This document shows, piece after piece, positions 8,009-51,208 of a DNA stretch of 56,942 bases; position 1 is the stretch's first letter, and the number at the start of each line of letters is the position of its first letter. The translations under genes were made by a program, and so were the position numbers. Source of the stretch: Lachnospiraceae bacterium. Lineage in GTDB: Bacteria; Bacillota; Clostridia; Lachnospirales; Lachnospiraceae. The stretch covers positions 1-56,942 of the forward strand of contig JAFRYE010000079.1 in assembly GCA_017441265.1 (NCBI GenBank). Reading direction: 5' to 3'. The notes below the pieces were generated by a model. It saw only the letters and a program-made list of their open reading frames with translations. It did not search any database and was not told where the DNA came from.

Positions 8009-8038
8009 CGAAAGGCTGTCCTTGCGGACAGCCTTTCG
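8009..8038 (-). terminator. Terminator at the end of the large ABC locus
   Basis: A 13-bp perfect stem, CGAAAGGCTGTCC (8009-8021) with GGACAGCCTTTCG (8026-8038), has a tetraloop and is followed by TTTTG on the minus strand. It ends the transcript of the solute-binding lipoprotein gene. Confidence 0.93.
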
Positions 8039-8058: not shown

Positions 8059-9579
8059 TTACTTCAAGATCTTCTCAGCGAAGCTGTCAAGAGCCGTCTG
8101 ATACTCTGCATTGAGGGACTCAATCAGAGAAGCAGGAGTCTGGCCTTCAGCATCGATGTTGTAAAGAAGTCTGGACTGGATGATACCGTTATCATTGTCC
8201 CAGAGGCCGGGTACCATGTACGTCGGGTTCTGGTAAGGCGTAGCCTTGTTGATCATGATATCAAGAGTCTCGTTAACAGCCTTGGAATCACGGAACAGCG
8301 ACTCATAGGAGCCCTTCCAAGCATTCTTATCCTCTGCAACGTCCGGAGCCTTGTTGGTGAAGATGTTGTAAGCGAAAGCTACATCGTTAGCCTTTGCAGT
8401 CTCAGCTGCACAGTTAGGCATAACCATGATGTTCTCTCTCGAAACCGGAATGTAACCCTTGCCAGTTGCCTTAGCGTTAGGTCCCATCGGGAAGCATACG
8501 AAACCGTAAACGAAATCGCAGAGCTTGCCGATTACATTGCCATCTGCATCCTTCTCATCACCGTTGAACTCGCCGGCCTTGTACTCGTCGTAAGGGATCA
8601 TTACGGACTGCTGCTTGGTCCACATCTTCTCGAAGTAGTTCCAAGGCTCGCCTTCCAATGCACGACGGGTAAGGTTCTCGGTCCAGAAGCTGTATGCCCA
8701 GTTGCAATCGTCGATTACTTCGGAGCTGTTCAGCGTGCTGACATACTTGTTGCCGTCCTTCTGTACCATGGCATGACCGTTGGAAACGATAGCCATCTCG
8801 AAGAATACGGACTGCTGCATCGTGATACCGTAAACGTCGATCTGACCGTCGTTGTTGGTATCCTTGGTGAGATCCTTCGCAAGCTTCTTGAAGTTATCCC
8901 ACGTCCACTCGTTGCTAGCCTGAAGCTCATAAGGATAATCAGCCTTGTCAGCGCCAAGGAACTGAGATACGAGATCCTTATTGTAGAAGATACCGGTTCT
9001 GGGCTCAACACCTACGCCCCAACCGAAGGTCTTACCACCGAGCGTCATAGCGTCTACACAGACTTTGTTCCACTTCTCATCGGTGAAATCGAACTCGCCA
9101 AGCTTAGCAACGTCGATAAAGAGCGGATCGTCCTGAGCCATGAAAGCTGCGATGAAACGATAGTCAAACGTCATGATGTCTGCAAGAGGCTCGTTAGCCA
9201 TGATGGAGTTCAAGCAGGTCTCGCCCTGATCGCTCCAACCGCAGATGGTCTTACGCTTGATGGTGTAGTGATACTTGTCCATCATCGCTTCCTGATACTC
9301 TTTGTTTGCTTCCTCGACAGCGGTCGTATCCGGCAACTTCCAATCGTCACCTGACCACCAGTCGCCAACGATAACTTCGAGATTCTTGAGGTCTCTGAGA
9401 ACCTCAGTAGGAGTCGGAGTTACGTTTGTGCCTGCATCCGGCGTGGGGGTTGCAGCCGTCTCACCCTTGGTAGGGGTCGTCGTAGTGTTCGTCGTATTGT
9501 TTTCTTCCTTGCAAGCTACAAGAGCGAAGCAAACAACACAAGCCGCCACAACCAGAAGCATTTTTTTGATTGTGCTCAT
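8059..9579 (-). CDS. Extracellular carbohydrate-binding lipoprotein of an ABC importer
   Basis: The 506-aa protein starts at an ATG behind a strong AAGGAGGAGC site. MSTIKKMLLVVAACVVCFALVAC is a lipoprotein signal with lipobox LVAC. An Asn/Thr/Pro-rich linker (about 25-60) precedes a family 1-type solute-binding fold, with GIFYNKDLVSQF, a calcium-loop-like DTNNDGQIDVYG, and aromatic residues suited to sugar binding. It captures a carbohydrate outside the cell for the permease pair just upstream. It has its own promoter in the 137-bp gap, allowing higher expression than the permeases. The ligand is unknown. Confidence 0.9.
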   Translation of the reverse strand: MSTIKKMLLVVAACVVCFALVACKEENNTTNTTTTPTKGETAATPTPDAGTNVTPTPTEVLRDLKNLEVIVGDWWSGDDWKLPDTTAVEEANKEYQEAMMDKYHYTIKRKTICGWSDQGETCLNSIMANEPLADIMTFDYRFIAAFMAQDDPLFIDVAKLGEFDFTDEKWNKVCVDAMTLGGKTFGWGVGVEPRTGIFYNKDLVSQFLGADKADYPYELQASNEWTWDNFKKLAKDLTKDTNNDGQIDVYGITMQQSVFFEMAIVSNGHAMVQKDGNKYVSTLNSSEVIDDCNWAYSFWTENLTRRALEGEPWNYFEKMWTKQQSVMIPYDEYKAGEFNGDEKDADGNVIGKLCDFVYGFVCFPMGPNAKATGKGYIPVSRENIMVMPNCAAETAKANDVAFAYNIFTNKAPDVAEDKNAWKGSYESLFRDSKAVNETLDIMINKATPYQNPTYMVPGLWDNDNGIIQSRLLYNIDAEGQTPASLIESLNAEYQTALDSFAEKILK

Positions 9580-9645
9580 TATAAGCTCCTCCTTAAAATA
9601 GTATCTTAAAATGCCTTCAGTCCTGCCGAAAACATCTTAATTTGG

Positions 9646-9675
9646 ATTATATCACAGTCTTTTCATAATTTCCAC
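9646..9675 (-). promoter_or_regulatory. Internal promoter of the solute-binding lipoprotein gene
   Basis: A perfect TATAAT (9646-9651) lies 18 nt from a weak -35 TGGAAA (9670-9675) on the minus strand. A small A/T-rich hairpin (ACTGTT/AACAGT, 9675-9691) just upstream may reduce read-through from the permease genes. Confidence 0.55.
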
Positions 9676-9716
9676 TGTTTTTTTAACAGTTTTTCACAAA
9701 ATAAACTGTGAGGGGA

Positions 9717-10691
9717 TCAACCCTTTATACCACTTTGCGATACACTTTCGACAAAGCTCTTCTGTGCAACTACGTAGATGATCAGCAACGGTGCCAGCAC
9801 CAAAAGCGTTGCGGCTGCCTGTACCTGGTTCTGGAAGATCAGCGGTGTCTGGTAAAGGTTACCGTACAGCTGCTTCTGTGTACCATCGTACAGAACTCCG
9901 GAGTTTGCCAGACGGTTTGCAACCAGTTTCCAGTCCGCCGTCGGATAGAACACACGGCTGTATACCGTATCGGTCCACTGCCATACGAATGCGAAGAGGA
10001 AGACGGAAACCATCATCGGTATTGCACCCGGAAGCAGGATCTGGAAGAATGTACGGAGTCTTCCGCAGCCGTCCACATAAGCGGCCTCTTCCAATTCCTT
10101 CGGCTCATTACGGAAATGCTGACGCATCATGTAGATGTACAGGCCCGCTTTGTAGCCGGAGCATGTAGCGCACATGATGAGGTACGGAATACCGGTTTTG
10201 GAAAGGTTCAGACCGGTTCCGAAGAAGTTACGGAAGTTCATGTACAGAGGGGTGATGATCGTCGACGGCGGCACGATCAGCATCAGGATCACGCAACCGA
10301 ACAGCAACTTCTTACCCGGGAATTTGTATCTTGCAAAACCGTAACCTACAAGTGTACAGGAAAGCACCTGGAGTAAACCTACCGCTGCGGAAAGCCACAG
10401 GGAGTTTCCGAATGCTACCCATTTTTCCAAGACGATCCAAGCGCTGGAAAATGCCTGCGTTGAAAAATGTCTCGGAATACTGGTGATCGACTTATCGTAC
10501 AAGTCGTTCTGCGTCATGAAGCTGACCGAAACCTTCTGAAGCAAAGGCTGAACGATCATGAAGCAAAGACCGAACAGAAGGATGCCGCGCGCGATGCTGA
10601 ACGTCCATGCCCAGATGCGCTTTCTCAGAAGGTATCCGCCGGATTTGCGGTTCCGCTCCCAAAAGGTAGTGCGTTTCTCAGTATTAGTCAT
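9717..10691 (-). CDS. ABC sugar permease, MalG/CUT1 type (second pair)
   Basis: This inner-membrane subunit of a carbohydrate ABC importer has six predicted membrane spans and the permease EAA loop EEAAYVDGCGRLRTFFQILLP, which docks the ATPase. The ATG at 10691 is chosen because AAGGAGG lies 12 bases upstream; this gives about 324 aa and overlaps the end of the preceding permease by 8 bp, so the two are translationally coupled. It ends in QSGIKG, typical of MalG-like subunits. It pairs with the next gene upstream and probably with the lipoprotein downstream. Confidence 0.9.
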   Translation of the reverse strand: MTNTEKRTTFWERNRKSGGYLLRKRIWAWTFSIARGILLFGLCFMIVQPLLQKVSVSFMTQNDLYDKSITSIPRHFSTQAFSSAWIVLEKWVAFGNSLWLSAAVGLLQVLSCTLVGYGFARYKFPGKKLLFGCVILMLIVPPSTIITPLYMNFRNFFGTGLNLSKTGIPYLIMCATCSGYKAGLYIYMMRQHFRNEPKELEEAAYVDGCGRLRTFFQILLPGAIPMMVSVFLFAFVWQWTDTVYSRVFYPTADWKLVANRLANSGVLYDGTQKQLYGNLYQTPLIFQNQVQAAATLLVLAPLLIIYVVAQKSFVESVSQSGIKG

Positions 10692-11709
10692 AGTAGTATA
10701 CCCTCCTTGAGAAAATCGCGAATACCAATGCCAGGAACAGTCCCACAACAAGGAAATATGCCCATGACATAGCCGCTACTCGACCATAGTCGAACTCCGT
10801 CGTCATAACGTAGCTGATGTAATCCATCAACTGGCTGTCGGTTCTGGTGAAGAAGTCGACCATCGTGTAAACGATGTTAACCATGATCATCGAGCCGATC
10901 AACGGGAACGTAATCTTCCAGAAGCTCTCCCATGCGGTACAGCCTTCCATCTTAGCCGCTTCGTACATACTCGGCGGTATCGTCTGCAGACCGGACAGGA
11001 ATACGATGATCTGAATACCAGACGACATAGCGATATCGTACACTCGGCCTACGAGGTCGATGACGTATTGGAAGAATGTGTTTCCGGTCTCACCGGACAA
11101 CAGGATATTCTCCAATGTCTTCGTGATCGCCGCCGCACCGTTCTCCGCCTTAACCATATCCTTTACGTTGGAAATCAACGGGTTGTTGGATTCCAGTCCG
11201 AGGAATGCACCGGCAGCAAGGATAACCGGCAGGAAGTAGATGGAACGAACCAGCGCACGTCCCTTGAATTCCTGATTCAGCAACACTGCCATGAAGAAAC
11301 TGAATACCAGAATACCGGGTACGAACAACGCCACTCTCTTCAACTCGTCAACCGCTTTCTCGATGAACTTCGAGTCACGGAAGAAGATGTAGTAGTAGTT
11401 GGAATTTTTGTTGAAAATTCCGATGTGCGTAAATGTGAAACTCTTGACATTTACCGAGCTCATCGACATCCGGATGGACTGGAAGAGCGGGTAGGCCAGG
11501 AACGCTAAGAAACCGATGATAAACGGAAGTACAAAGAGGAAACCCGCGATCGCGTTGCCACGCGCAAGATTTCTCTGCTTCGACTTTCGGGTGCCCTCGG
11601 GATTCGGAGCGGTTGTGACCAGGTCGTCCAGCACGGATTCTGTCGTTTCTGCAGCCTGCTCGAGATTCTCGTCGGCGCGGAGTTCAGAATCGTTTACATT
11701 CTTACTCAT
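10684..11709 (-). CDS. ABC sugar permease, MalF/CUT1 type (second pair)
   Basis: A polytopic permease with the EAA loop MYEAAKMEGCTAWESFWKI. A charged N-terminal tail of about 50 residues precedes the first span. A long periplasm-side insertion (roughly residues 95-215, including SNNPLISNVKDMVKAENG) separates early spans, larger than in a minimal CUT1 subunit. ATGs at 11715 and 11709 both follow GGGGGTG; 11709 gives the better spacing. It lies 14 bp downstream of the 877-aa membrane protein gene and overlaps the next permease. Confidence 0.88.
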   Translation of the reverse strand: MSKNVNDSELRADENLEQAAETTESVLDDLVTTAPNPEGTRKSKQRNLARGNAIAGFLFVLPFIIGFLAFLAYPLFQSIRMSMSSVNVKSFTFTHIGIFNKNSNYYYIFFRDSKFIEKAVDELKRVALFVPGILVFSFFMAVLLNQEFKGRALVRSIYFLPVILAAGAFLGLESNNPLISNVKDMVKAENGAAAITKTLENILLSGETGNTFFQYVIDLVGRVYDIAMSSGIQIIVFLSGLQTIPPSMYEAAKMEGCTAWESFWKITFPLIGSMIMVNIVYTMVDFFTRTDSQLMDYISYVMTTEFDYGRVAAMSWAYFLVVGLFLALVFAIFSRRVYYYD

Positions 11710-11722
11710 GATCATTCACCCC

Positions 11723-14356
11723 CTATCTCACTACCCAGCTCTGAGCCGGTATTGTTAATCCGTCTTCCAAAGTGTAATCGGCGGTACGATAGTTTACATA
11801 AACCTTGGTTCCGTCGGCAAATTGCGTCATCTTGACATCGGTATCGATGATCTGATGATCTTCGATCGTCTGGTTGTAAGTCTTCGAAAAATCATTCTGG
11901 AAGCGCTTGTACAATGCGACCGCATCATCCTTCCAGCTGTCGAAGTTCGCACCGAAGTACTTCGTGCAATCCGACTCTGCCAGCTCCATGCCTTCCTTTT
12001 CCATGAAAACGAAGTACAAACCGGCACCGGTCTCAACACAGTTCAGCAGGTTGTACGTATAGTCGCCTGTAACGTTGATCGCCGCGCCCGTGTAATCCAC
12101 ATGACCGTGAAGAACGATCGGGAAGAACGGGATCGAATCATCCGTGAGCGACATATGCGTGGAATCCACATCCATGTCAACCAGCAGGTCCGCATCCTTG
12201 ACGACGTAGTCAAATGCATCATAGAAGATCATCTTGTAATCATCGCTTCGAAGGTTGCTGAGCACTTCGATCTGACCGTTCATTGCCGCCTGTCTGGAGA
12301 CTGCCTTCTTACGGTTGTAGTCGGATGCAAGCTTGTTACCGATATCGGTAAATGCAATGCCCTTGACATCGTAATCGGCGATCTCTTTCGCGAAGTCTTT
12401 CATCGTCTTCTCGATGTACGCCGGGTTGGCAAGGTAGAAGTAATCACTGTCTTCAATGATTCCGTACCAGACATCACTGATCTTCTGCATCTTCACGTAC
12501 TCACGGGAAAGATACTTCGCAGTGTCACGTCTGTAGCGGTAACCGTCAAACAGATCGTCATCGTAGACGAACACGAATCCCGCCTTCAGGTAAAGATCAT
12601 TGCCTGCGCCGCGGATGTTGCTGATCGCCTTCTTGAAATCGCTCTTTCCGCCGAGAACGCCGATCAGGCTGACGTCGTTGGCTACATCGTGCTGAACACC
12701 GTCGTTGAACCAGCCGTTCAGGATTACGGAAAGATTGTTCATTCCGGCATCGTTGAGTTCCTTGATGATATCCGCCATCTCGGAGTATGTGGTCATCGCG
12801 TAAGGGCGATCAACCGGGAAACCGAGGATGTGCTGCGTCTTCGTCACGGCACCGATCAACTCGACCGCCGTGGGAAGCTTGCCGGACGTCTTCTGCTCTG
12901 CGAGCTCATATTTTTTGAGATAATAATCGCGATACTCTTTCGCCATATCAACATAGTTGGAACTGTTGACCGAGCGGAAGCGCATCTTGATGGATTCGCC
13001 CTTCGGCAACGACTCCTCGTAAGCGAAGAAGTCGGAGTCGGACTGCGCACCCATATCAACCTGCTCGTTCTTCACCATGTCAAATACGGCCTGAACAGCG
13101 TTTACATTGGCGCCGGCGCCACCGGTAACAACCGATTTGATATATCCGTACGCCTCGCCCTCTTCGATGATCGCGAGAAGCGACTGGGCATGATCCTTCT
13201 TCTCACCCTCCTCCGTACGCGCGTTGACCGCGATACCGTACACAGGATAGTTGATGACGGGATCGGATACGACTTCCTTCTGGGTCATCGCGTAATCCCA
13301 TCCGAAGATTTTGGCACTGTACTGCATCGAGCTCTTCCGGTTGTTGAAGTTAATGATCGCGCCGGAGCCGTCCGGTACGAACATATAACCGTCAGAGGTC
13401 GAAGGCTCCGAGAGCATGTACGGCAAAACGTACAGCTGCGTGAGCGGGTTCGAGGAACGATAGGAAATCTTCTCATACGGGATCGTCACAACCAGATCGG
13501 ATCCGTCCAGCTCGAGGATCATCGTGACATCGATCGCCGGAAGCGTCGAGGTATTCGTGAGTTGAGCGAACTTCTCCTGATCTTCTTTCCACTCGTCCAT
13601 CGTATATCCGGCTTCATTTGCCAGATAATCCTGAAGCTCTTCCTTCTGCCAGTCCTGAACTGCGCTACGAACGAAGTACAGCGTCGTACCGTTCTTCTCG
13701 ACTTCGTCTTTGGCCTTCGGGAAGTTCTTGCCGTATTCCTCATTCTCCTTACGAGCAAGCTTTTCCGGAGTCATCTTGATGTAACGATCACGGAAAGCAC
13801 TCTTCGAATCGTCTGACGTCAGACGTCCGCGAAGTTCCTCGTACTTCTCCACCGTCAGGATTTGCGGATAATAGTACGTCTTTTCGATCTTACCGATCGT
13901 AAAATCGATCGTGATCTTTTTTCCGTCGCTTTCTACCTGATAGTTTTTCTTTTCCACGGATTCCTTGTAGGAGTTCAACTGGGAAGGAACACCGCTCTTA
14001 TTCTGATAAACAACCTTCAGCAGGGCGTTGGCTTCCGGATGATTGGAATCCGATGCCTGCGAAGTGGAATACCATACATTGCCTTCGTTGTCCGTCAACG
14101 TAAACTGCGTGGTATTCGGATTCATCTCCAGTGTGAGATACTCATTCTGAAGAGTAAGAGGTCCGCCCTTGTAATCCTCGTCGTGATGATAGATCACAAA
14201 ATCCGCGGGATTCTCTTTCTTCTGTTCACCGAGGTGTTTTGCCACCAACACAAGGATAGTAATGATGATGGCTGCGATCGGATAACCGATCAATTTTCCT
14301 TTGTTGTTCTTAACGAACTCTTTGAAAGCCCGTTTGAACCTGCCTTTTCTACTCAT
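11723..14356 (-). CDS. Membrane-anchored DUF5696-like protein, possibly glycosidase-related
   Basis: The 877-aa protein has a basic N-terminus and one membrane span (about residues 20-41), leaving about 830 residues outside the cell. The first outer region (about 55-330) looks like a beta-sandwich opening with LTLQNEYLTLEMNPNTTQFT and DNEGNVWYSTS, reminiscent of the super-sandwich of GH31/36/97/101-type enzymes. A central region (about 500-760) alternates strands and helices as in a TIM barrel, with GIAFTDIGNKLASDY and LLVDMDVDSTHM holding conserved-looking acidic residues. I recognise the family as DUF5696-like from memory; no function is established. It sits between the permease sets, next to YIP1, which suggests surface processing or recognition of the transported glycan. 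Confidence 0.7.
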   Translation of the reverse strand: MSRKGRFKRAFKEFVKNNKGKLIGYPIAAIIITILVLVAKHLGEQKKENPADFVIYHHDEDYKGGPLTLQNEYLTLEMNPNTTQFTLTDNEGNVWYSTSQASDSNHPEANALLKVVYQNKSGVPSQLNSYKESVEKKNYQVESDGKKITIDFTIGKIEKTYYYPQILTVEKYEELRGRLTSDDSKSAFRDRYIKMTPEKLARKENEEYGKNFPKAKDEVEKNGTTLYFVRSAVQDWQKEELQDYLANEAGYTMDEWKEDQEKFAQLTNTSTLPAIDVTMILELDGSDLVVTIPYEKISYRSSNPLTQLYVLPYMLSEPSTSDGYMFVPDGSGAIINFNNRKSSMQYSAKIFGWDYAMTQKEVVSDPVINYPVYGIAVNARTEEGEKKDHAQSLLAIIEEGEAYGYIKSVVTGGAGANVNAVQAVFDMVKNEQVDMGAQSDSDFFAYEESLPKGESIKMRFRSVNSSNYVDMAKEYRDYYLKKYELAEQKTSGKLPTAVELIGAVTKTQHILGFPVDRPYAMTTYSEMADIIKELNDAGMNNLSVILNGWFNDGVQHDVANDVSLIGVLGGKSDFKKAISNIRGAGNDLYLKAGFVFVYDDDLFDGYRYRRDTAKYLSREYVKMQKISDVWYGIIEDSDYFYLANPAYIEKTMKDFAKEIADYDVKGIAFTDIGNKLASDYNRKKAVSRQAAMNGQIEVLSNLRSDDYKMIFYDAFDYVVKDADLLVDMDVDSTHMSLTDDSIPFFPIVLHGHVDYTGAAINVTGDYTYNLLNCVETGAGLYFVFMEKEGMELAESDCTKYFGANFDSWKDDAVALYKRFQNDFSKTYNQTIEDHQIIDTDVKMTQFADGTKVYVNYRTADYTLEDGLTIPAQSWVVR

Positions 14357-14375
14357 CAGCTTACCTCCTTTCGTG

Positions 14376-15053
14376 TCAGCTTATTCGGAACAATAACTCT
14401 TTGTAAAGCGAGACAAGATACATGATGGCGTCGCTGATCAAACTGAAGAACAACAGGCACACGAACATGATAACTGCCATACCGACGATGGAAGCAAGGA
14501 TAACCACGATGCCCTTGAGGAGGGAGTAGTCATGGATCATCAGCACCGCGCACAGGATCAGGAAACCTGCCCAGATCAATGCGAAGGTGTTGAAGTAGGT
14601 GTAGAAAACACCCTCTTCCTTCGTCACAACATTACTGAGGAGAATCATCGGCAGACCGATCAACGGATACGGGGTCAACGCGTACGCGGTGCCCATGTAA
14701 ATCTCGTAGAAGCGGCCCTTGCCGTCGAACAGTGTCGTTACACACCAGTTTGCCGTAACCCAGATGAGCAACGGAACCAGGATACCCAGCGTGTTCAACC
14801 AGATACTGAACTCACTCCAACGAGTGTTGTTCAACATGAAGTTGGTGAACCGGCGATCCCAAATGTGCGTAAGCACCGTCAAAATTACAATCGTGTGAGC
14901 CACGGCCATCGAGCCGCGCTTCTCATGCGTCAGATCCCAGAATCCGTCGAACGGATGAAGGATTACGTAAAATGCATACCGGAAGGATTTGCGGTATCTG
15001 CTCCAGCCTTCCCCTTTGAAAAATCCTGCGATACCGGAGAGAATCTTACTCAT
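14376..15053 (-). CDS. YIP1-family polytopic membrane protein
   Basis: The 225-aa protein has about five to six membrane segments and the YIP1-type opening YAFYVILHPFDGFWDLTHEKRGS. Bacterial YIP1 proteins are of unknown function. Its start ATG overlaps the stop of the upstream NHL/TPR gene by four bases (ATGA), showing translational coupling. The 877-aa gene follows within 20 bp. Its place between two permease pairs suggests a membrane scaffold or accessory subunit of the importer (inference). Confidence 0.8.
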   Translation of the reverse strand: MSKILSGIAGFFKGEGWSRYRKSFRYAFYVILHPFDGFWDLTHEKRGSMAVAHTIVILTVLTHIWDRRFTNFMLNNTRWSEFSIWLNTLGILVPLLIWVTANWCVTTLFDGKGRFYEIYMGTAYALTPYPLIGLPMILLSNVVTKEEGVFYTYFNTFALIWAGFLILCAVLMIHDYSLLKGIVVILASIVGMAVIMFVCLLFFSLISDAIMYLVSLYKELLFRIS

Positions 15054-16840
15054 GCTTCACGTATCTCCTTTCGCATTTTTCTGACTTTCCGAATGATCTT
15101 CGGAATGACGATCAAGGCTATCAATACAACTACCGCATACACGATGTATTTCTCAACAACCTGCTCACGATAGTGGCGGAACGCTTTGGAGTAGTTCTCC
15201 GAATCGTGGGCGCTTTCGAAATAACCCATTGCCTCTTTGTATTCGCCCTTGCGCAGAAGCGCACGGCCGATACCGATGTATGCAAGCTCAAAGTTACCGT
15301 TAAACTGAAGGATTCGCTTCCAGACTTCCGCGGACTCATCATAGTAACCGGTCTTATACAGAGCCAGTGCCTCATTGATCATCTTGCCGTAGTCCGTCAT
15401 CGAGAACTCAGTGATGTTTCCGGCCGTGCCGTCCAGAACAAGGATGGTTTCCTCATCCATATTGTCCATGGAAACAGCCTGCGAGAAACGACCGCGGGTC
15501 GTACCGCCGTTACCGAAAGCATACAACAGATTGCCCTGGAAATCGTATGCAAAGATCTTGCCTCGCGTTCTGTCAAGACAGCAATAGGTGTCATTGTTGA
15601 ACGCGATAACATCGACGAACTTCGAAGCACCGGCATAGTTCTTAACGCTGCCCCAGGAAAGATCTCCCATCGGGAACGCGCTGCCGTTTCGGATCAGAAT
15701 GTCAGTACCCATGGAATTCAGTTTACGTACCGGCGTCGCCGTTCCGTCCCAGATATCCTGATCTTCCAACGCACTGATCGTCGCGTAAATGAAGCCGTTC
15801 TTGTCAAGACTGATATTGTTGTACTCGGTCGGTACGTGCTGTGCGCTTCGGTTTCTCTGTTCCTTCGTCTGGATCTTTCTCCACAGCTTTCTCCAGAAGG
15901 AAACGATAACCTTCGCGGCACCTACGTAACCGGTGAACGAACCGCCCTTATCAAACTCCATGAAACCGTTGACAACGCCGGCCGCCTGTACGTAGGTACG
16001 GTATGCGGCATCCGTCGCAATGTGTTCCGGGTTGAATACATAATTGTCGCCCAACGTGTCATCCTGCGGATCGCGGATCACGTTGATAACGTTGAGGTTG
16101 TAATCGCAGTGGATCACACGGTTGTGAAGCTTGTCTGCGATATAGAAATCGTAATCGCGCTTAAGATCCTTGCGCACGATATTCTCTTTTCTCTCGCTCG
16201 GAGCTACCGGGGTCGGGGTGGGCGTCGGAGCATCCTCTCCGCCTTCACCGCCTTCGCCGCCTTCGCCGCTCTCTCCGCCTTCGCCGCCTTCACCGGCATT
16301 GTCCTCATCCGAGGTCGTCAGCGAATTGCCTTGCGTGACGGAAGCAGTCTCTGCGGAGAAATCGTACGGATCACCGAGATAATCGGTGCCGAAGTTTGCA
16401 ACACGATCTGCCTGCGTGATCGGCTTGACGAAGATATCCATCGGATTGTACAACGTCGCGTCGATAGAGTCCTTGAACTTCAGCTGCGGAGCGACCAGTT
16501 TGGAAACATTCAGGCTGTAAATGATACGAACCAGTTCATATGTGCCGTTCACCTTCTGCAGCTCAATGACTCTGTTGTTGCCTGCGTCGCAGATGAACAC
16601 CAGATCATCGATGCAGAACAGGCTCGTTGCACTTGAAAAGGTTCCTAACTCGGGATCGATATACTGCGGATAGATCTTGTTGGTAACCGCATATGCGTTC
16701 GGAGACGCAACCGGATCACCCCAGTAATTGTAAGTATAAGTGTACCAATCGTCATCGTCTGCCATCGCCGGCGTTACATTACAGAACAGGAGGCACAGTA
16801 ACATCAGCAGCGCGATTGAACGTTTTGCTATCGGTTTCAT
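15050..16840 (-). CDS. Exported NHL beta-propeller/TPR membrane protein
   Basis: A signal peptide ends at about residue 27 (TPAMA). The body carries NHL/propeller-like blades, for example FICDAGNNRVIELQ, FYIADKLHNRVIHCDYN, DKNGFIYATI and TILVLDGTAGNITEF. Between blades is a low-complexity Gly/Glu insert (about 183-202) followed by a Pro/Thr stretch. TPR-like helices (about 500-560, FELAYIGIGRALLRKGEYKEAMGYFESA) come next, then a C-terminal membrane span (about 565-580) and a basic cytoplasmic tail. So a ligand- or partner-binding propeller faces outward and the tail faces inward. It has an AAAGGAGG site and is coupled to the YIP1 gene by overlap. No function is known. Confidence 0.8.
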   Translation of the reverse strand: MKPIAKRSIALLMLLCLLFCNVTPAMADDDDWYTYTYNYWGDPVASPNAYAVTNKIYPQYIDPELGTFSSATSLFCIDDLVFICDAGNNRVIELQKVNGTYELVRIIYSLNVSKLVAPQLKFKDSIDATLYNPMDIFVKPITQADRVANFGTDYLGDPYDFSAETASVTQGNSLTTSDEDNAGEGGEGGESGEGGEGGEGGEDAPTPTPTPVAPSERKENIVRKDLKRDYDFYIADKLHNRVIHCDYNLNVINVIRDPQDDTLGDNYVFNPEHIATDAAYRTYVQAAGVVNGFMEFDKGGSFTGYVGAAKVIVSFWRKLWRKIQTKEQRNRSAQHVPTEYNNISLDKNGFIYATISALEDQDIWDGTATPVRKLNSMGTDILIRNGSAFPMGDLSWGSVKNYAGASKFVDVIAFNNDTYCCLDRTRGKIFAYDFQGNLLYAFGNGGTTRGRFSQAVSMDNMDEETILVLDGTAGNITEFSMTDYGKMINEALALYKTGYYDESAEVWKRILQFNGNFELAYIGIGRALLRKGEYKEAMGYFESAHDSENYSKAFRHYREQVVEKYIVYAVVVLIALIVIPKIIRKVRKMRKEIREA

Positions 16841-16851
16841 ATTGTCCTCCT

Positions 16852-17718
16852 TTACTCTTTAATACCGGAACTTGCCATTGTCTCAACGATGTTACTCTGT
16901 GCAAGGATGAAGCAGATCAACGGAATGATCATCATGAACAGTGTTGCCGCGGAACCTGCACCGGTACGTGCGACACCGCCGGCCGCAACCGTCTGCAAAG
17001 CGAACGGAAGCATCTTCAACTGATCCTGATACAGGAACGTCGTACCTGCGTTATTCCACAGAGCCTGAATCGAGAAGATCATCAGGGTAAGGATAGCCGG
17101 TTTAACCAGCGGCATTACGATGGTCCAGAAAATTCTTTGTTCCTTCGCGCCGTCGATCTTTGCAGCCTCGATCAATACATCCGGGATACTCGACTCCATG
17201 AACTGTTTCATAAGGAAGAGACCCATCGGCGAGGCAAATGCCGGTATGATCAAAGCTAAGTAGGTATCGATCCATCCGAGCTTTGCCATGATCAGGTAGT
17301 TCGGGATGGACAAAACGTAACCGGTGAACATCAGGGCCACCGTAACCGCCGCGAAGAACAGGCGGCTGCCGGGGAAACGGTACTTAGCCAGAACGTATGC
17401 CGCCATGGAGGCGATCAGGATGTGGCCTGCGGTACCGACTGCCGTCACGAAGATGGAGTTGAACATGTATCTCGTGAAGGTTACAACACCGGTCTTGCTC
17501 AACAGCAGGAACAGGTCGCTGAAGTTGTCGGTCGTCGGGTTGTGAACGAACAACTTCGGCGGGTAGATGAACAACTCATCCAACGGTTTGAATGCGGCGT
17601 TGATTGCATAAACCAGAGGGAATGCAAAGAAGCAGCCGAAAATAATCAATACGATGGCAACACCGATATCGCCCGCGCGGGAGCGGTTCGGTTGTCTGCC
17701 TGCTTTAATCTTTTTCAT
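16852..17718 (-). CDS. ABC sugar permease, MalG/CUT1 type (first pair)
   Basis: A 288-aa inner-membrane permease with about six spans and EAA loop IEAAKIDGAKEQRIFWTIVMP. It pairs with the MalF-type gene 15 bp upstream and, by gene order, with the giant solute-binding protein. It ends TMASSGIKE, the usual MalG-like tail. AGGAACGAGC precedes the ATG. Confidence 0.92.
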   Translation of the reverse strand: MKKIKAGRQPNRSRAGDIGVAIVLIIFGCFFAFPLVYAINAAFKPLDELFIYPPKLFVHNPTTDNFSDLFLLLSKTGVVTFTRYMFNSIFVTAVGTAGHILIASMAAYVLAKYRFPGSRLFFAAVTVALMFTGYVLSIPNYLIMAKLGWIDTYLALIIPAFASPMGLFLMKQFMESSIPDVLIEAAKIDGAKEQRIFWTIVMPLVKPAILTLMIFSIQALWNNAGTTFLYQDQLKMLPFALQTVAAGGVARTGAGSAATLFMMIIPLICFILAQSNIVETMASSGIKE

Positions 17719-17733
17719 TGCTCGTTCCTCCTA

Positions 17734-18666
17734 TCAGGTTCCTAACCGACTCAACGCGCGCTGGATGAACTTGTTACACAAGTACATCACTAAGAACAAC
17801 AGCGTTGCGATGGCGGAGGCATAACCCATCTCGAATCGGTACTGACCGTAGTCGATCAGGTGGGTTACGATTGTACGAGCAGCGTAGTCGGTACTCGGGA
17901 AACCGCAAAGGTTCATGGTAACATCGGCCGTGTTGAACGACTGCGTGATAGCCATAACGGCACCGAACATCAACATGGACTTCATGTTCGGCAGAGTGAT
18001 GTACCACAACTCCTGCCAACGGTTTTTGACACCGTCTACATAACCGGCCTCATATTGGTCCGCAGGGATCGTATTGAGACCTGCGATGAAGGACAGGAAG
18101 CCGGCACCCAGTGACAGCCACAGCTGAACGACAATAACGATTGCCATCATGTACTGCGGGTTGGTCAGCCACAAAACCGGCTGATCCATGATTCCCCATT
18201 CCACCAGATATGCATTTGCATAACCGTAGGAGTCACCGGAGAAGATGAAGCTCCAGATCAGGTAAACCTGACCGGAAATGGTCGGCGCGTAGAAGACGAG
18301 CACCGCGATCGCGCGGATTCCTCTGGGAAGCTCATGGATCAACCATGCGAAGATGAACGCCATGATGTATCCGACAGGGCCCGTGATTGCCGCGATCAGG
18401 AACGTATTCTTGATAGCCGTAAGGAAAATGTCATCTGCCAGGATCAGGTTGATGTAGTTCTGGAACAGAATGAACTTCGGCGGCTGCAATACGTTAAAGT
18501 ACGTAAATCCGTAATAAATGGAAACAAATACAGGGCAAATATAGAACAACGTGAAGATTATTGCATACGGAGCGAGAAAGAAGTAGCACGTCTTATGCTC
18601 TTTGATATCCTTCCAGAGGAAGTGAGCCTGACGCTTCTTACCCGCTTTCCAATTCGCATAACTCAT
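17734..18666 (-). CDS. ABC sugar permease, MalF/CUT1 type (first pair)
   Basis: A 310-aa permease resembling LplB/MalF subunits, with TM segments beginning YFFLAPYAIIFTLFYICPVF and the loop YEAGYVDGVKNRWQELWYITLP, in which the usual EAA reads EAG. An AGGAGAG site precedes the ATG. It lies 20 bp downstream of the giant solute-binding protein gene and 15 bp upstream of its MalG-type partner, so these are one operon. Confidence 0.92.
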   Translation of the reverse strand: MSYANWKAGKKRQAHFLWKDIKEHKTCYFFLAPYAIIFTLFYICPVFVSIYYGFTYFNVLQPPKFILFQNYINLILADDIFLTAIKNTFLIAAITGPVGYIMAFIFAWLIHELPRGIRAIAVLVFYAPTISGQVYLIWSFIFSGDSYGYANAYLVEWGIMDQPVLWLTNPQYMMAIVIVVQLWLSLGAGFLSFIAGLNTIPADQYEAGYVDGVKNRWQELWYITLPNMKSMLMFGAVMAITQSFNTADVTMNLCGFPSTDYAARTIVTHLIDYGQYRFEMGYASAIATLLFLVMYLCNKFIQRALSRLGT

Positions 18667-18686
18667 GGTATTGGCTCTCCTTTCTC

Positions 18687-21600
18687 TTATTCGGTAGGCA
18701 GATTAAACTCTTTACGTTTCTTGATCAACTCGTCGTTGATATCTCTGGTGTAGTCCAGAACCGTCTCACGAGGATCCATGTTCTGGTTCATAACTTTACG
18801 GATCGCATTGATGATGTGACGTCCGGTGTAGTAACCGCCCGGAACCTCAGGAGTTCCGACAACCCATCTCCACTGCTCTTCGAGCATCTCACGCTGCGAA
18901 GCACTCCATGCAAGATGGTCAAACGCCTTGACGTTCGCCGACGCATAACGAGCCGACTCACCCATAACTGCCTCGAGTTCTTTACCGAAGGTGGCCTGTG
19001 CCTCCTCGCCGCCCCACCACTGCAGGAACGCCCAAGATTCCTCCGGATGCTCGGTCGTACCGAGGATCATGGAGCAGGTTCCCCAGCAACCGCAGGAGCG
19101 GTTGATGATCGGATTGCCGTCCGCATCCATCTTGGGATTACCGTTCTCATCCTTCTCGATCGTTCCGGGAAGAACCGCCATATCCCACAAACCGCGAATC
19201 TCGGGAGCGGATACGACCAGCGTGTTGTAGGTATTGAAATCGACGAAACCGATCGGCATCTCGCCGGTACGGAAACGGTCTACGAAGTTGTAGTCCGTCG
19301 GCGTCTTATAGTGCGTGAAGAACATCGTGTAGTACTCAAATGCTTCAACGGAAATATCCTCATCCAACAATACGCGTGCGCCGCTGTCGCTGTAAAGTTT
19401 TCCGCCTCGCTGATACAACTGAGCGAAGAAACCGTTCATATCGGGGTTCGATACGTTGTTGATCTTACGCTCGGTAGAAGGAATACCGACATTCATGTTT
19501 GCCTTCTGGATCGTCGGCAGCATTGCGATCAACTCATCCCACGTGTTCGGGATCGTCAGTCCGAGTTCATCCAGGATGTCCTTGCGGTAGAACATCAGGT
19601 TGTAGTACTGCGTCTCCGGCATACCGAACACGCCTTCGTGCATATTACCGTTCTCATCCTCGTACTTATATGTATAAGGAACATAGGACGACGGCATGAA
19701 ATCGGCGAAACATTCTTCGAAGCTCTTGATGTTGCCGCCCTGAGCCGTGTTGCCCTTGAACTGCGTCAGGTCGAGGGAAGCGCCTCGCAAAGCGTAGTTG
19801 ACCGGCTCACCGGATGCTACGTTCAATGCAACGTCGGGACCGGTCTTCGCAACCGTTGCCGGCAGCAGAACGGCCGCCGTCATCAGGTTCACGTTAACAC
19901 CGATATGGTACTCTTTAACGAACGTGTCATCGATCATCTTCTTTAGGATCGTACACTGGTCACGGCCCTGGAAGATCCAAACCGTGATGGTCGTCATATC
20001 ATCGTCTTCGTAAACGTTACCGATGGCGTTGTAATCAACCACAAAGGAAGCAAGGAAGGAACGAACTTCATGAGCAACCTTGTCGAACCAGCTGACATCG
20101 TCCTCCGGGATCTTGTAGTCGCTGCCCGATACGATCAGGTAGTCGATATCCAGGTTGGACTCTTTCATGGTCAGGATAGAACTACCGAGGGAACTTACAT
20201 TATTCTTAAATGCAGCGAGTCCGCTCGGGATCTTATCCGCATCGTCAACGAAGCGCTCCAGCTGCGTAGCCAGCGTCAGGAGTGCGGAAACCTGCGTGCC
20301 GCTCTCGCCGGCGTAATCAACCAGCTCGTCGATGATGTGGTACAGAACCTTCGACTCCTGCTTCATGCCTTTGATTACGTCCGGATACTTGTCGTCAATG
20401 TTGTAGTCACGATCGGGATCCGGCTCGGTTCCGGTGTAAACCAGGATACGACGATAAATCTGATTCAGACGATACACGGCATCGGTCATTTCGGTGAGGA
20501 TTTCACCGACACGTCCGAGCGTCACCTGAAGACGAATCGTATTCTTTCCTTCTTTCAAATGGAAGAGATACGGATTGCCCTTTTCATCGCTCAGCGTGTT
20601 AACCTGCCAATCGTTGTCGAAATCAAACTTGATCTTGCTGACTTCTTCAAACGGGATCTCACCGTTAATGTAAAGCGCGCGGCAGGATACAAGACCACGG
20701 GTGTAGTTCTGGCGCGTCTTCAGCGTCAATTCATAGAATCCGTCGTTAGGAGCTTCCACTTCCCACTCGATCCACTGTCCGGCAATCTTCCAGTTCGTGC
20801 CGCCGGCCATGTTGATGACCTGATGCTTAACGTCGTAAGGATAGGTTCCTGCGGAACTGCGGTCATACGTCGAATAGAGAGACTGAGACGACCGAGCGGT
20901 CGACATCTCACCCTCCACTCTCTGGCTGAACGTATTTTTTGCAGACGACGTATCAGCGTCAGCGATGTAATTCGCATACTTAGGAAGATCCTCAATCGCG
21001 CAAAGCGTCAGGGACTTGAGGATCAAAGACTCCTGCGAAGCATCGAAGCGGATCGTGTTCTCGCCTTCCTTAAAATAGAAGCAATACGGAGTGACGACAT
21101 AGCCGTCCTTATCCGAAAGGCTGACCGTCTCCCAACGGGGAAGCTCAACCTGCTTCGGACGGATCTGGTTCCCCTGCGTATCAACATCGATGTCAGGCTT
21201 CGACGGATCTTCGGGATCTCTCTCGTCCTGCCATACACGAGGGAGTGCGATCGCATCGGCACCCGCGAACGGAAGTTCCCCGTTGATGAGGATCTTACGC
21301 TCAATCTCGATACCGCGGGAACGAACGCTCTCCTGATCCGGATAGTAGCACAAGCGAATGTGATACATTCCGGCCGTGGGAACGTTCACCTTGAGAACAA
21401 CATAGCCGTCCTCAAAGGCCAACAAAGTCTTGTCCACCCCGCCATACGGGCCGAACTCATACTTGTCGCCCTCAACAACCGAACTCTCGTCCAACGGAAC
21501 TTCAACATCTTCCGTAGGCCGAGCTGCTTCATGGTAACGGGCAAGATAAGCGGTATACGTGTCCGACCGCCCTTCGGCTGTCAGCTGCTCGAAATCCAAA

Positions 21601-21722
21601 TCCGCATACTTGTACGCATAGGATTTGTTACCGCTGAGCTTTCCGTAAACCACGATGGCTGCGATGGCTACAATGACAGCAGCCACCACCCAAAAGGTTT
21701 TGCTCTTGTAAAATCTGCGCAT
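18687..21722 (-). CDS. Giant membrane-anchored solute-binding protein with carbohydrate-binding-like domains
   Basis: The ATG at 21722 is chosen because GGAGG lies seven bases upstream; other in-frame starts up to 21782 lack a site. The 1011-aa product begins with one membrane anchor (about 9-27), not a lipobox. Two beta-sandwich domains (about 80-260 and 270-410) share the pattern ILINGELPFAG/LYINGEIPFEE then FKEGENTIRF/LKEGKNTIRL, as in galactose-binding-like carbohydrate modules. A helical linker follows, then a family 1-type solute-binding domain (about 570-1000; LMFYRKDILDELGLTIPNTWDELI, EESWAFLQWWGGEEAQ). Solute-binding proteins are normally 400-550 aa, so the anchored fusion is unusual. 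It is the first gene of the operon. Confidence 0.85.
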   Translation of the reverse strand: MRRFYKSKTFWVVAAVIVAIAAIVVYGKLSGNKSYAYKYADLDFEQLTAEGRSDTYTAYLARYHEAARPTEDVEVPLDESSVVEGDKYEFGPYGGVDKTLLAFEDGYVVLKVNVPTAGMYHIRLCYYPDQESVRSRGIEIERKILINGELPFAGADAIALPRVWQDERDPEDPSKPDIDVDTQGNQIRPKQVELPRWETVSLSDKDGYVVTPYCFYFKEGENTIRFDASQESLILKSLTLCAIEDLPKYANYIADADTSSAKNTFSQRVEGEMSTARSSQSLYSTYDRSSAGTYPYDVKHQVINMAGGTNWKIAGQWIEWEVEAPNDGFYELTLKTRQNYTRGLVSCRALYINGEIPFEEVSKIKFDFDNDWQVNTLSDEKGNPYLFHLKEGKNTIRLQVTLGRVGEILTEMTDAVYRLNQIYRRILVYTGTEPDPDRDYNIDDKYPDVIKGMKQESKVLYHIIDELVDYAGESGTQVSALLTLATQLERFVDDADKIPSGLAAFKNNVSSLGSSILTMKESNLDIDYLIVSGSDYKIPEDDVSWFDKVAHEVRSFLASFVVDYNAIGNVYEDDDMTTITVWIFQGRDQCTILKKMIDDTFVKEYHIGVNVNLMTAAVLLPATVAKTGPDVALNVASGEPVNYALRGASLDLTQFKGNTAQGGNIKSFEECFADFMPSSYVPYTYKYEDENGNMHEGVFGMPETQYYNLMFYRKDILDELGLTIPNTWDELIAMLPTIQKANMNVGIPSTERKINNVSNPDMNGFFAQLYQRGGKLYSDSGARVLLDEDISVEAFEYYTMFFTHYKTPTDYNFVDRFRTGEMPIGFVDFNTYNTLVVSAPEIRGLWDMAVLPGTIEKDENGNPKMDADGNPIINRSCGCWGTCSMILGTTEHPEESWAFLQWWGGEEAQATFGKELEAVMGESARYASANVKAFDHLAWSASQREMLEEQWRWVVGTPEVPGGYYTGRHIINAIRKVMNQNMDPRETVLDYTRDINDELIKKRKEFNLPTE

Positions 21723-22099
21723 TGCTTCCTCCATTCCTGCCATACTGCGCAATAGCCCGCTGTTTTTGCAAAAAAAGCGCAAAAAAGGGGCTAGTTTGAG
21801 AATTATTTAAGCATATTGTACTAAAAACCCCTTGCATTTTCACATCAATTTTTGCTATATTTAGGGCAAATATTGCGAAATTGTGCGATTTCCTGTATGC
21901 ATAATTTGTTAATTATGTTTACGAAATCGATTATTTTCGGCTTATCCGTCGTCCGTTTTTGGTATTTTTAACTAAATACCCAAGCGCGTAATACTTGAAA
22001 ATGCGGGGTTTGCGATTGTTTTTGTGCATTTTCCTAAACGTAAATAGCATTTTTTGCAAAGTCCCGTTTCCGAACGGACGACATTTTCGGAGGTAATTT
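21723..22099. promoter_or_regulatory. Divergent control region between the importer operon and its AraC regulator
   Basis: This 377-bp A/T-rich region should hold both promoters. On the minus strand a -10-like TACAAT lies at 21815-21820 without a convincing -35, as expected for an activator-dependent promoter. Candidate operators include TTTGC/GGCAAA half-sites around 21851-21870, direct repeats ATTGCGAA and ATTGTGCGA (21871-21890), and a perfect dyad GGTATTT-N6-AAATACC at 21961-21980. A GTCC-GTT/AAC-GGAC hairpin (22062-22079) lies just before the regulator's CGGAGG site. Confidence 0.6.
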
Positions 22100-23038
22100 A
22101 TGGCCAGAACTCTGCGAGGCACTTTTGAGCTGGTTCCGTTCCAGTCTCACGAGTCTCTTTTGATGTATCTGAACAGCGAGTATGAGGATTATGATACGCA
22201 TTGGCACACCGCTGCCGAGATTATCATGCCCTTGGAAAATGAATACCACGTGACGATCGGTCAGCAGATCTACCACCTGCTCGAACGGGATATTCTCTTT
22301 ATTCCGCCGGGAGTTTTACACTCGCTTCAGGCGCCCAGTTCCGGACGTCGGATGATATTCTTGTTCAACTTTTCGCCGATCAGTTCGCTGCAGGATTTTT
22401 CGTCGCTGCTGCCCGTTCTCAGCCAACCGAATCTCCTGTCTTCGCTTGACCCCGAGACGCATATGGATGCCGTCCGGCTCATGCAGCAGATCATCGACAT
22501 TTACCCCGACCGCAGCGAGCCTCTTCGCGTCGCCATGATCTATTCCTACCTGATCCAGTTCTTCGTGCTGATCGGGCGACGCCACATTCGCCGAGACCTT
22601 CTCACGCAGGATTCCAAATCCCGCAAACAGACCGACTGCTACGAGCGTCTCAATGCGTCCATGAACTACATCAACGCCAACTACATGAACGACATCACCG
22701 TCGAAGATGCCGCAAGAATCGCCGGCTTCAGCAAGTTTCATTTTTCGAGACTGTTCAAGCAGTTCACCGAGCAGACGTTCTGCGGTTACCTGAACCAGCG
22801 ACGCATCAATGCCGCCGAGACGCTCCTATTAAATCCGCGCCTCTCGGTCACGGATGTGGCTCTTCAAAGCGGTTTCTCGTCGCTCTCGACCTTCAACCGC
22901 GTGTTCCGCACGCTGAAGTCCTGCACTCCGTCGGAGTTCAAGGCATTTCACCAGCGCCGCGGGATCCGCCGCAGGCACGCCGCCGACGTTCCCGAGCACA
23001 CCGACACTCCGCCGGAGACTCCTACGCCGTCCCGTTAG
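22100..23038 (+). CDS. AraC-family transcriptional regulator
   Basis: The 312-aa protein has an N-terminal cupin-like sensing domain (about 30-100, HWHTAAEIIMPLENEYHVTI, IPPGVLHSL) and a C-terminal pair of helix-turn-helix motifs (about 190-285, DITVEDAARIAGFSKFHFSRLFKQ and LSVTDVALQSGFSSLSTFNRVFR). A Pro/Thr-rich tail follows. The start has CGGAGG nine bases upstream. It is divergent from the importer operon, the usual arrangement for a local sugar-responsive activator. Confidence 0.93.
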   Translation: MARTLRGTFELVPFQSHESLLMYLNSEYEDYDTHWHTAAEIIMPLENEYHVTIGQQIYHLLERDILFIPPGVLHSLQAPSSGRRMIFLFNFSPISSLQDFSSLLPVLSQPNLLSSLDPETHMDAVRLMQQIIDIYPDRSEPLRVAMIYSYLIQFFVLIGRRHIRRDLLTQDSKSRKQTDCYERLNASMNYINANYMNDITVEDAARIAGFSKFHFSRLFKQFTEQTFCGYLNQRRINAAETLLLNPRLSVTDVALQSGFSSLSTFNRVFRTLKSCTPSEFKAFHQRRGIRRRHAADVPEHTDTPPETPTPSR

Positions 23039-23245: not shown

Positions 23246-24772
23246 TCATTTGGTTTTACCGGATCCGTCCTGCGCCTCATCCTCGTAGATGAATGCGTAT
23301 TCCGCGCGCTTCGCAGCCGAGGAATTGAAGGATTTCGCCGTTTCTTCTACAGCAGTAGAAGCCTGTTCTTCCGCTGCTTCCACTACATCACTAATCGGAG
23401 TCTGAACTGCGCCCGCAATCTCTTCCGCCGCTTCCGTAACCGATGCCTCAGCAGCATCCGCAATCGGCGCCGCGGCATCTTCCGCCGCATTGATCTTGTT
23501 GTCAACAGCCGACTCGTATTTGGCGATCAGGTCAGCCATCTCTGCGGCTTCCTTCTCGGCTTCCGCCGCTGCCTTGCTCGGCAGTTCCGGAACTGCTTCC
23601 GCAGCCTCGGCAATCGGCGCTGCCGCCTGTTCCAACGTCCGCTCTGCTTCCTGCGATGCTTCCGAAACCGCTGCCTGAACCGTAGCTGCCGTCTGAGCTA
23701 CGTTCTGCGCAACTGCCTGCTCTGCCGCCGGAACCGGTGCTGTCTGAACCGACGTCTGAACCGGAGCCGCCTGCTGTAACGGAGCTGAAGGTTGTACCGG
23801 GGCTGTCGGCTGAACCGGAGCCGCCGGTTGCACCGGTGTTGCCTGCTGAACCGGAGCCGTCGGCTGTACATGAGCTGCCGGCTGTACCGGAACTACTGCC
23901 TGTGCCGGAGCCTTCGGTGCCTGTCCCGGCACCTGATATCCTGTATAGACCGGTCTTTGCTGTGCGGGAGCAACCGGAGTCATAACCGGGTTGTACACGC
24001 CGGGAACCGCATTGACGGGAGCGCCCGTAACCGGATCGATGCCGTTCATCACGGGAGCCGGATTATTCTGCTGCACGGGAGCGGTGATCTCGGTAAGCTT
24101 CGCGCATGCCCAACGACAGGTGGCAAGGATCACGACCAGCTGGATCGCCAGATTGGCTTGGTTAATGCCGGACGTTTGAGCTACTTTACTCAGTCCGTTG
24201 TAAAAACTTTCAACTGCTTCCTCAGGATCCTCAACCCACATCAGATAATCTTCCAGAAGAATCACAGCCGCAACAAAGAAAGACGAAATAACAGCCGTCA
24301 GAACGGCAAACATCCGGGTTGACGAGGCTTTCGCCAAAAGGCCAAGACCCATTCCAAGCACCATCAGCATGATCAGGCCGATAAAGATTGCCGAGCACAG
24401 AACGCCGTTCTTTGTAGCCGTCTTGGCAGACTTACCGACGAAATCCTCGGGACTGAAATAGCAGTATACCGTAAAACCGCAGCTCACTGCCGACAACAAC
24501 GACGCGATCGCAAAGAATCCGCGTTTGTTCGACATCATGGCGATCACCCAGAACAGAAGACCGGCGCTCATAATCCATCTGGCGAGCTGCAACCAACGCT
24601 CCGGTGAACTCTCTACCAGAGTAAAGAAGTCTTTGACAACGGTAAAAAACGATTCATCAGTTTTGACAGCCATTACTCTGAACGAGCAGATCAGCGCGTT
24701 CAGAAAAATGACACCCAGCGCACCGAGTATCGCCGCCACGGCGTATGAATACCGTTTGCTCTTTTGAATCAT
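23246..24772 (-). CDS. Six-span membrane protein with a Pro/Gln/Ala/Val-repeat cytoplasmic or surface tail
   Basis: I do not recognise this 508-aa protein. The first ~220 residues contain six hydrophobic spans (about 10-31, 60-82, 84-107, 120-145, 153-175 and 200-222). A repeat region (about 240-350) follows, built on PVQPxAPVQQ-type units. The last ~150 residues are Ala/Glu-rich and likely helical or coiled coil (EAAAPIAEAAEAVPELP, AEAEKEAAEMADLI). A CGGAGG site precedes the ATG at 24772. It lies 15 bp downstream of another unknown membrane protein, probably in one operon. Confidence 0.75.
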   Translation of the reverse strand: MIQKSKRYSYAVAAILGALGVIFLNALICSFRVMAVKTDESFFTVVKDFFTLVESSPERWLQLARWIMSAGLLFWVIAMMSNKRGFFAIASLLSAVSCGFTVYCYFSPEDFVGKSAKTATKNGVLCSAIFIGLIMLMVLGMGLGLLAKASSTRMFAVLTAVISSFFVAAVILLEDYLMWVEDPEEAVESFYNGLSKVAQTSGINQANLAIQLVVILATCRWACAKLTEITAPVQQNNPAPVMNGIDPVTGAPVNAVPGVYNPVMTPVAPAQQRPVYTGYQVPGQAPKAPAQAVVPVQPAAHVQPTAPVQQATPVQPAAPVQPTAPVQPSAPLQQAAPVQTSVQTAPVPAAEQAVAQNVAQTAATVQAAVSEASQEAERTLEQAAAPIAEAAEAVPELPSKAAAEAEKEAAEMADLIAKYESAVDNKINAAEDAAAPIADAAEASVTEAAEEIAGAVQTPISDVVEAAEEQASTAVEETAKSFNSSAAKRAEYAFIYEDEAQDGSGKTK

Positions 24773-24787
24773 ATGACACCTCCGTAA

Positions 24788-32544: not shown

Positions 32545-32545
32545 A

Positions 32546-33427: not shown

Positions 33428-33452
33428 TATTGCCTGCCTTCCTCAAAAAGAA

Positions 33453-33482: not shown

Positions 33483-33507
33483 ATCAATTTTCTAACGATC
33501 ACTAAGA

Positions 33508-51119: not shown

Positions 51120-51208
51120 AAACCAGTATCCTTCTCTTTCTAAACCTTTCCACTCTTCAATTGTAATCTCGCTTCCGTACGGTTTAGTAATTTTCTGTGG
51201 AAGATTTC

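Follow-up and report, generated by a model that had tools for sequence, protein, structure and literature searches.

Carbohydrate importers of the CUT1 family of ATP-binding cassette (ABC) transporters, for example MsmEFG with MsmX, combine binding proteins with paired permeases that carry a coupling loop and an unlinked ATPase. In Bacteroidota, SusCD systems, with a TonB-dependent SusC and the lipoprotein SusD, form a conserved surface module that is amplified in the genome and found beside different enzymes. To our knowledge, little is understood of how Gram-positive gut, rumen and soil bacteria, which have no outer membrane, capture and import large plant glycans. Gram-positive polysaccharide utilization loci (gpPULs) bring together regulator, transporter and glycoside hydrolase (GH) genes, and in the accessible part of one account the transporters are ordinary ones (PMC5320581), while a gpPUL without a surface glycan-binding protein is described in the accessible part of another (PMC10318527). 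Here we analyse a 56,942-nucleotide stretch of a Lachnospiraceae bacterium genome (assembly GCA_017441265.1, contig JAFRYE010000079.1; hereafter the window), which contains one copy of a conserved eight-gene cassette that is probably a composite CUT1 glycan importer of Bacillota with a dedicated surface module.

Compared with the described systems, the cassette shares with CUT1 importers the binding proteins, the paired coupling-loop permeases and the unlinked ATPase, but it has two permease pairs and a binding protein fused to modules resembling carbohydrate-binding module family 35 (CBM35), and it adds three constant proteins: an NHL/TPR protein, a YIP1 protein and a DUF5696 protein. Unlike the gpPUL without a surface glycan-binding protein (PMC10318527, as far as that text is accessible), the cassette supplies a surface module; the regulator and transporter of a gpPUL are present in the window, and the GH3 enzyme, in which no transmembrane (TM) segment was found, may act on oligosaccharides inside the cell and so might not qualify as the polysaccharide-degrading enzyme of a gpPUL. 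Cassette and SusCD systems are both conserved surface modules, amplified and located beside varied enzymes, whereas the cassette is of the ABC type and sits at the cytoplasmic membrane. Membership of the block in the SusCD family itself was rejected, as Pfam detected no SusC or SusD domain in its genes. Finally, DUF5696 shares a sandwich, a barrel and a C-terminal domain in sequence with GH129 and DagB enzymes, but is membrane anchored, bound to the cassette and without conserved catalytic acids.

The cassette lies on the reverse strand and consists of the genes for a large anchored binding protein (18687-21722, with Pfam SBP_bac_1 in its C-terminal half), permeases 1a (17734-18666) and 1b (16852-17718), the NHL propeller and TPR protein (15050-16840, TPR by Pfam), the YIP1 multi-TM membrane protein (14376-15053), the GH129-related DUF5696 protein with an N-terminal TM anchor (11723-14356), and permeases 2a (10684-11715) and 2b (9717-10691), all four permeases matching Pfam BPD_transp_1. 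For the large binding protein we prefer the ATG at 21722, downstream of GGAGG, to the TTG at 21782 at which the mechanically called open reading frame (ORF) begins. A second binding lipoprotein (8059-9579, reverse strand; SBP_bac_1 and a lipobox) follows, a divergent AraC-family regulator (22100-23038, forward strand; Pfam HTH_18, HTH_AraC and AraC_binding) precedes, and a beta-xylosidase-like GH3 gene (5750-7912, reverse strand; Pfam) is associated with the cassette outside its core. The genes named in the original prediction are where it placed them, ORFs and Pfam being in agreement, and the overlaps that it gave as signs of coupling are present (4 bp at 15050-15053; 8 bp at 10684-10691, with the ATG start of permease 2b). 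Its single block spanning 8059-23038 needs redrawing: the eight core genes belong together, but the widely conserved core does not include the second binding protein, AraC or GH3, and GH3 lies outside that interval altogether, beyond a terminator-like hairpin (8038-8009). The label 'DUF5696-like' named the right family with undue caution, since the protein is DUF5696 proper (PF18952, 562 bits against a cut-off of 25.6).

To place the cassette among relatives, DUF5696 was searched in 99 genomes (the window's and 98 others; 40 of 44 matches above 300 bits fetched) and across the phylum in 398 genomes, with up to three candidates scored per genome (40 of 56 matches above 300 bits fetched), both match totals including the window's own. 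Addition of two loci from a genome-collection scan (L031 and L032) and two named plasmids gave 84 loci, of which L053 was excluded because its contig matches that of L031 in length and scores; a third locus from the scan (L033) was left out as a DagB homologue. The 83 loci counted include some paralogues within one genome, and together with the window they make up the 84 sequences of the DUF5696 alignment. Beyond the phylum, the sampling covered 14 named control genomes, none of which had a DUF5696 match over the Pfam cut-off.

The gene order is strongly conserved. In 82 of the 83 loci the gene immediately upstream of DUF5696 is YIP1, alone or as a fusion with NHL/TPR, and in 78 permeases 2a and 2b directly follow DUF5696; the five loci without an adjoining pair 2 comprise three at a contig edge, one with overlapping ORF calls (L143) and one in which the pair is about 0.75 kb away (L064). 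NHL/TPR is fused to YIP1 in 29 loci and lies beside it as a separate gene in 52, L126 being cut. The fetched stretch includes a full-length large binding protein in 65 loci, upstream in 61 and downstream in 4, and all eight components in 63. Loci ranging from Lachnospiraceae to Paenibacillus repeat this order, which makes the block more than a chance arrangement. Named carriers include Butyrivibrio fibrisolvens D1 on plasmid pNP243, with GH43 adjoining, Butyrivibrio sp. INlla16, and Paenibacillus cellulosilyticus, with a UgpC ATPase adjoining.

The components also occur together across genomes. With the window's own genome removed (397 genomes), strong DUF5696 matches (>300 bits) were found in 36 genomes from 15 family-level groups, and weak matches in nine further genomes, two of them over the Pfam cut-off. 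The NHL/TPR profile scored at least 199 bits in the same 36 genomes and in one other with a truncated piece near a contig end (G340), the next lower score, 74 bits, belonging to generic NHL proteins; the YIP1 profile scored at least 139 bits in exactly the same 36, with a next lower score of 49 in two further genomes. The N-terminal half of the large binding protein was matched in all 36, in G201 at only 154 bits where the contig starts within the gene, and additionally in two genomes (G202 and G252) on contigs of less than 4.4 kb that end inside the next permease. Five genomes of one family (f41) gave partial matches of 75-147 bits. In f41 genomes without strong DUF5696, we also noted shorter relatives of this N-terminal half, of about 540 amino acids (L191, 5178-6812; L192, 5151-6743). 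Association of DUF5696 with NHL/TPR over the 397 genomes gave a Fisher P of 2.0e-50, a value in which the kinship of the genomes overstates their independence. Within the window's genus, DUF5696 was present in 21 of 21 other sampled genomes.

Copy number gives a further line of evidence. Five genomes of 2.2-3.0 Mb contain 10, 10, 17, 10 and 8 copies of YIP1, and 50 of these 55 copies are followed by DUF5696 on the same strand within 2.5 kb. Of the other five, four lie on contigs where DUF5696 is not matched and one shows the reversed order (G160:C9, 19841-25708, DUF5696 upstream of YIP1), the only such case among 51 YIP1 places with DUF5696 on the contig; conversely, at eight DUF5696 places YIP1 is missing within 6 kb on the contig. 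Accessory genes living apart from the permeases would speak against a unit, and the neighbourhood and co-occurrence search gave no such refutation. Gene order, co-occurrence, fusion and copy number strongly support the predicted functional unit with dedicated accessory membrane proteins.

The large binding protein, of about 1000 residues, has an N-terminal TM segment, two CBM35-like sandwiches, a coiled coil and a solute-binding protein (SBP) domain. The profile of its N-terminal half matches 5x7g (CITase; E 1.7e-7) and 2w47 (E 1e-3), in parts that we take to be CBM35, and the region after the sandwiches has a designed coiled coil as its top listed match. The SBP half is nearest to Lin1841 (E 1.2e-6). 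Anchors and TM segments, here as elsewhere, were called by simple hydropathy or lipobox, and on this basis the large binding protein is anchored in 62 of 65 loci. The second binding lipoprotein has as its nearest solved relative an AbnE-type arabino-oligosaccharide-binding protein (6rjy; E 7.7e-6) and is a variable partner outside the orthologous same-genus loci. All four permeases retain the coupling (EAA) loop: the E, G and P columns are kept in 69, 69 and 70 of 70 sequences for permease 1a, in 70, 69 and 69 of 71 for 1b, in 80, 79 and 81 of 81 for 2a, and in 75 (with D in 6), 81 and 71 of 81 for 2b. An ATPase within the cassette was rejected, with a UgpC-like gene in only 1 of 85 fetched stretches. 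An MsmX/UgpC-like ATPase is encoded elsewhere in the window's genome (G000:C4), with 55% identity to the ATPase adjoining the Paenibacillus copy. The features that define a CUT1 importer, namely two loop-bearing permeases, SBP_bac_1 binding proteins and an ATPase in the genome, are thus all found; the genes point to CUT1 identity, and the G000:C4 ATPase may be the one that the cassette uses. The window also has an ordinary three-gene CUT1 importer, a binding protein with two permeases, at 31660-34812, which contrasts with the cassette.

Among the accessory proteins, NHL/TPR has an N-terminal hydrophobic segment, read as a signal peptide, and a C-terminal TM segment that is present in 51 of 51 examined proteins; its alignment profile matches NHL propeller and TPR structures. 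The window's YIP1 protein has the score (PF04893, 34.3 bits; cut-off 28.6) and the multiple TM segments of a Yip1 protein; among 53 YIP1 ORFs from the loci, 52 have 4-6 TM segments, and under a stricter cut the window's own has three. DUF5696 is anchored by a TM segment in 67 of the 83 loci and by a lipobox in 11, with no anchor found in five. Its profile matches DagB (5opq, E 2e-14) and the GH129 enzyme NagBb (5wzn, E 2.8e-8), and a local profile-profile comparison with seven GH129/DagB enzyme-like proteins gave a probability of 99.7%. AlphaFold runs on three and four DUF5696 sequences gave unusable models (mean pLDDT, the predicted local distance difference test, 37-38). We also noted six GH129-like ORFs of about 630-670 amino acids from the window's family and order (L163-L168), which carry the YLDVF and SSEE motifs in 6 of 6 cases and form an enzyme-like relative group of DUF5696.

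The AraC and GH3 genes are conserved over a shorter range. Of the 20 same-genus loci that look orthologous, 18 have an AraC match and 18 have GH3; the two without AraC (L039 and L044) are cut by contig ends, as are the two without GH3. Four further same-genus copies (L042, L045, L048 and L058) have neither. Upstream of the operon, a conserved motif, AATATAGCAAAAATTGA (21845-21861, reverse strand), is a candidate regulator site; its 8-mer TAGCAAAA occurs in 19 of 19 upstream regions (the window and 18 same-genus loci), and with up to three mismatches allowed the motif is matched once in the window, against 0.13 expected. A promoter-like site of the operon (21815-21843, reverse strand; GTGAAA-17-TACAAT) is a consensus match only, such sites showing no enrichment as a class in the window (17 found, 14.3 expected from shuffles). 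The terminator-like hairpin at the operon end (8009-8038, reverse strand), 3' of the second binding protein, has 13 pairs, 8 of them GC, and a T-rich tail; this class is not enriched either (15 found, 17.0 expected from shuffles). An Rfam scan of the window gave no match above the gathering score.

The best solved match of GH3 is the beta-xylosidase 7zb3 (E 1.8e-107), and it scores 823.6 bits against NCBIfam Xyl3A, under the cut-off of 1250. Because GH3 is most like beta-xylosidases, xylan fragments are the best guess for the substrate of the window copy. Flanking proteins across the loci were hand-picked (162 of 251 candidates), with the commonest 25 of 87 and of 110 families listed; among the matches listed were GH26 (8), GH31 (5), CBM35 (6), GH43 (4), GH42 (at least 3), GH28 (at least 2) and apiosidase-like proteins (at least 2), with LacI (10) and AraC (6) regulators, and these families therefore indicate varied plant glycans. 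Beside the Paenibacillus cellulosilyticus copy (L035, 18958-28181) are LLM flavin-dependent oxidoreductases and extra binding proteins, hinting that some substrates may be other than plain sugars.

We propose that the CBM35-like modules and DUF5696 would hold long plant glycans or large oligosaccharides at the membrane, and that the surface proteins may form a physical complex. NHL/TPR and YIP1 would provide a membrane platform that keeps the surface proteins beside permease pair 2, as the adjacency of these genes in nearly all loci suggests. Permease pair 1 would receive ligand from the large binding protein and pair 2 from the second one, or from different binding proteins elsewhere among the loci, and one shared MsmX/UgpC-like ATPase would power both pairs. 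The AraC protein would switch the operon, and GH3 would trim the imported oligosaccharides, in the window's genus probably xylan fragments, inside the cell. Several observations weigh against this model. L064 is the sole locus without NHL/TPR and YIP1, its genome having a complete second copy (L069), and six loci (L064, L067, L115, L118, L119 and L124) have no large binding protein nearby despite a continuing contig, with the genomes of L115, L118, L119 and L124 encoding one elsewhere and the remainder of the 18 loci without a full-length copy being cut or short. A strict coupling-loop pattern was matched by only 55/67, 61/67, 52/78 and 62/80 permeases, fewer than the alignment columns show, and among solved structures the YIP1 profile had no significant relative (best E 0.08). 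When pairwise protein distances are compared between the eight components, the correlations are 0.84-0.96 across all loci and 0.67-0.87 for distant pairs, which would be expected of a jointly inherited unit but also of shared species history. The xylan assignment is itself a guess drawn from one GH3 and weak SBP similarity.

Alternatively, DUF5696 might be a membrane-bound enzyme with glycosidase activity, trimming the glycan ahead of its import, with the accessory proteins joining enzyme to importer. Its kinship with NagBb and DagB favours this idea, as does the retention in the window copy of D671, D679 and D713, column 679 being acidic in 69 of the 84 sequences. In DagB, the candidate catalytic residues are Asp486, Glu517 and Glu531, with Asp202 of the partner monomer, according to the accessible part of PMC5698469. 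However, no barrel acid is invariant in DUF5696, and the column nearest to it (E775, 94% D/E) is one at which DagB has no acid. At columns 671 and 712/713, 25 sequences have an acid in both positions, 35 in one only and 24 in neither; of the last group, 19 come from loci with the full set of eight components, seven of those loci belonging to the window's genus. Even under the loosest rule (any of 671, 674 and 679 with any acid in 710-716), both acids are kept in only 43 of 84 sequences and 31 of 63 eight-component loci. The column of the DagB nucleophile is uncertain, at 674 in one profile alignment and near 679 in the other, the second setting column 671 opposite the YLDVF aspartate of the enzyme-like relatives. 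The opposite proposal, that DUF5696 clearly has no catalytic activity, lost strength because the two alignments disagree on this position. The conserved nucleophile and acid/base of an active GH129/DagB enzyme are thus not found across DUF5696, and the window copy keeps candidates for them under an uncertain column assignment. We consider an active glycosidase unlikely as the general function; copies without the acids would only bind, and copies with candidates, including that of the window, which may still be active, could perform limited trimming.

A pair of ordinary CUT1 importers, each taking up different products of one polysaccharide and accompanied by three unrelated hitch-hiking genes, would also explain the coupling loops in both permease pairs and the binding protein that adjoins each pair in the window, where the importer at 31660-34812 shows that the ordinary arrangement occurs. 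We find this improbable: the accessory genes travel with the cassette in the sampled genomes and remain adjacent in amplified copies, and NHL/TPR is often fused to YIP1. A membrane sensory complex, in which propeller, YIP1 and one permease pair inform the regulator of glycan occupancy instead of importing in bulk, would fit those cassettes that adjoin a regulator, be it AraC, LacI or a two-component system. Yet neither a kinase nor any other known output domain was detected by Pfam in the core genes, both permease pairs keep their ATPase coupling loops and the AraC protein carries its own ligand-binding domain, making such a role very improbable. For the composite importer, a bolder form can be put forward tentatively, as a doubtful but possible extension: a Gram-positive counterpart of SusCD, that is a self-contained, amplifiable glycan-capture machine, one per glycan, in which a GH129-derived holder with acids lost in many copies and a propeller/YIP1 platform feed two coupled ABC importers.

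The original prediction had called the locus an undescribed system for glycan sensing, processing and import. Import is supported by the four permeases with conserved coupling loops, and 'glycan' appears reasonable from the families of the binding proteins, CBM-like modules and neighbouring enzymes. Sensing has the AraC gene and the conserved upstream motif in its favour and no other basis, and processing is not established, as DUF5696 does not conserve the catalytic acids of GH129/DagB. 'Undescribed' holds within the open PubMed Central papers searched and no wider: no description of the cassette was found there, subscription papers, preprints and supplements being outside the search, and no paper of that literature contained the term DUF5696. 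NHL and Yip1 are absent from the accessible main text of PMC12838199, PMC8579813, PMC4867992, PMC5320581 and PMC10318527, and NHL from that of PMC6344614. The parts are of known kinds; what is new is their combination, its strictness and its amplification.

Elsewhere in the window, two adjacent co-oriented ORFs of 508 and 258 amino acids (23246-25564) have no Pfam or NCBIfam match and adjoin a PutP-like symporter. An RHS-repeat protein of 600 amino acids is encoded at 46257-48059, and a stretch of lower GC content (50094-56837) encodes three consecutive proteins with Listeria-Bacteroides (InlB-type) repeats.

If the composite importer is real, it would be a major, nameable uptake system, carried by about 9% of the genomes sampled across the phylum (36/397) and with 8-17 YIP1 copies in five genomes of 2-3 Mb. 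It would offer hypotheses on the function of PF18952 and of one group of bacterial YIP1 proteins, and the cassette would serve as a genetic marker for locating glycan loci.

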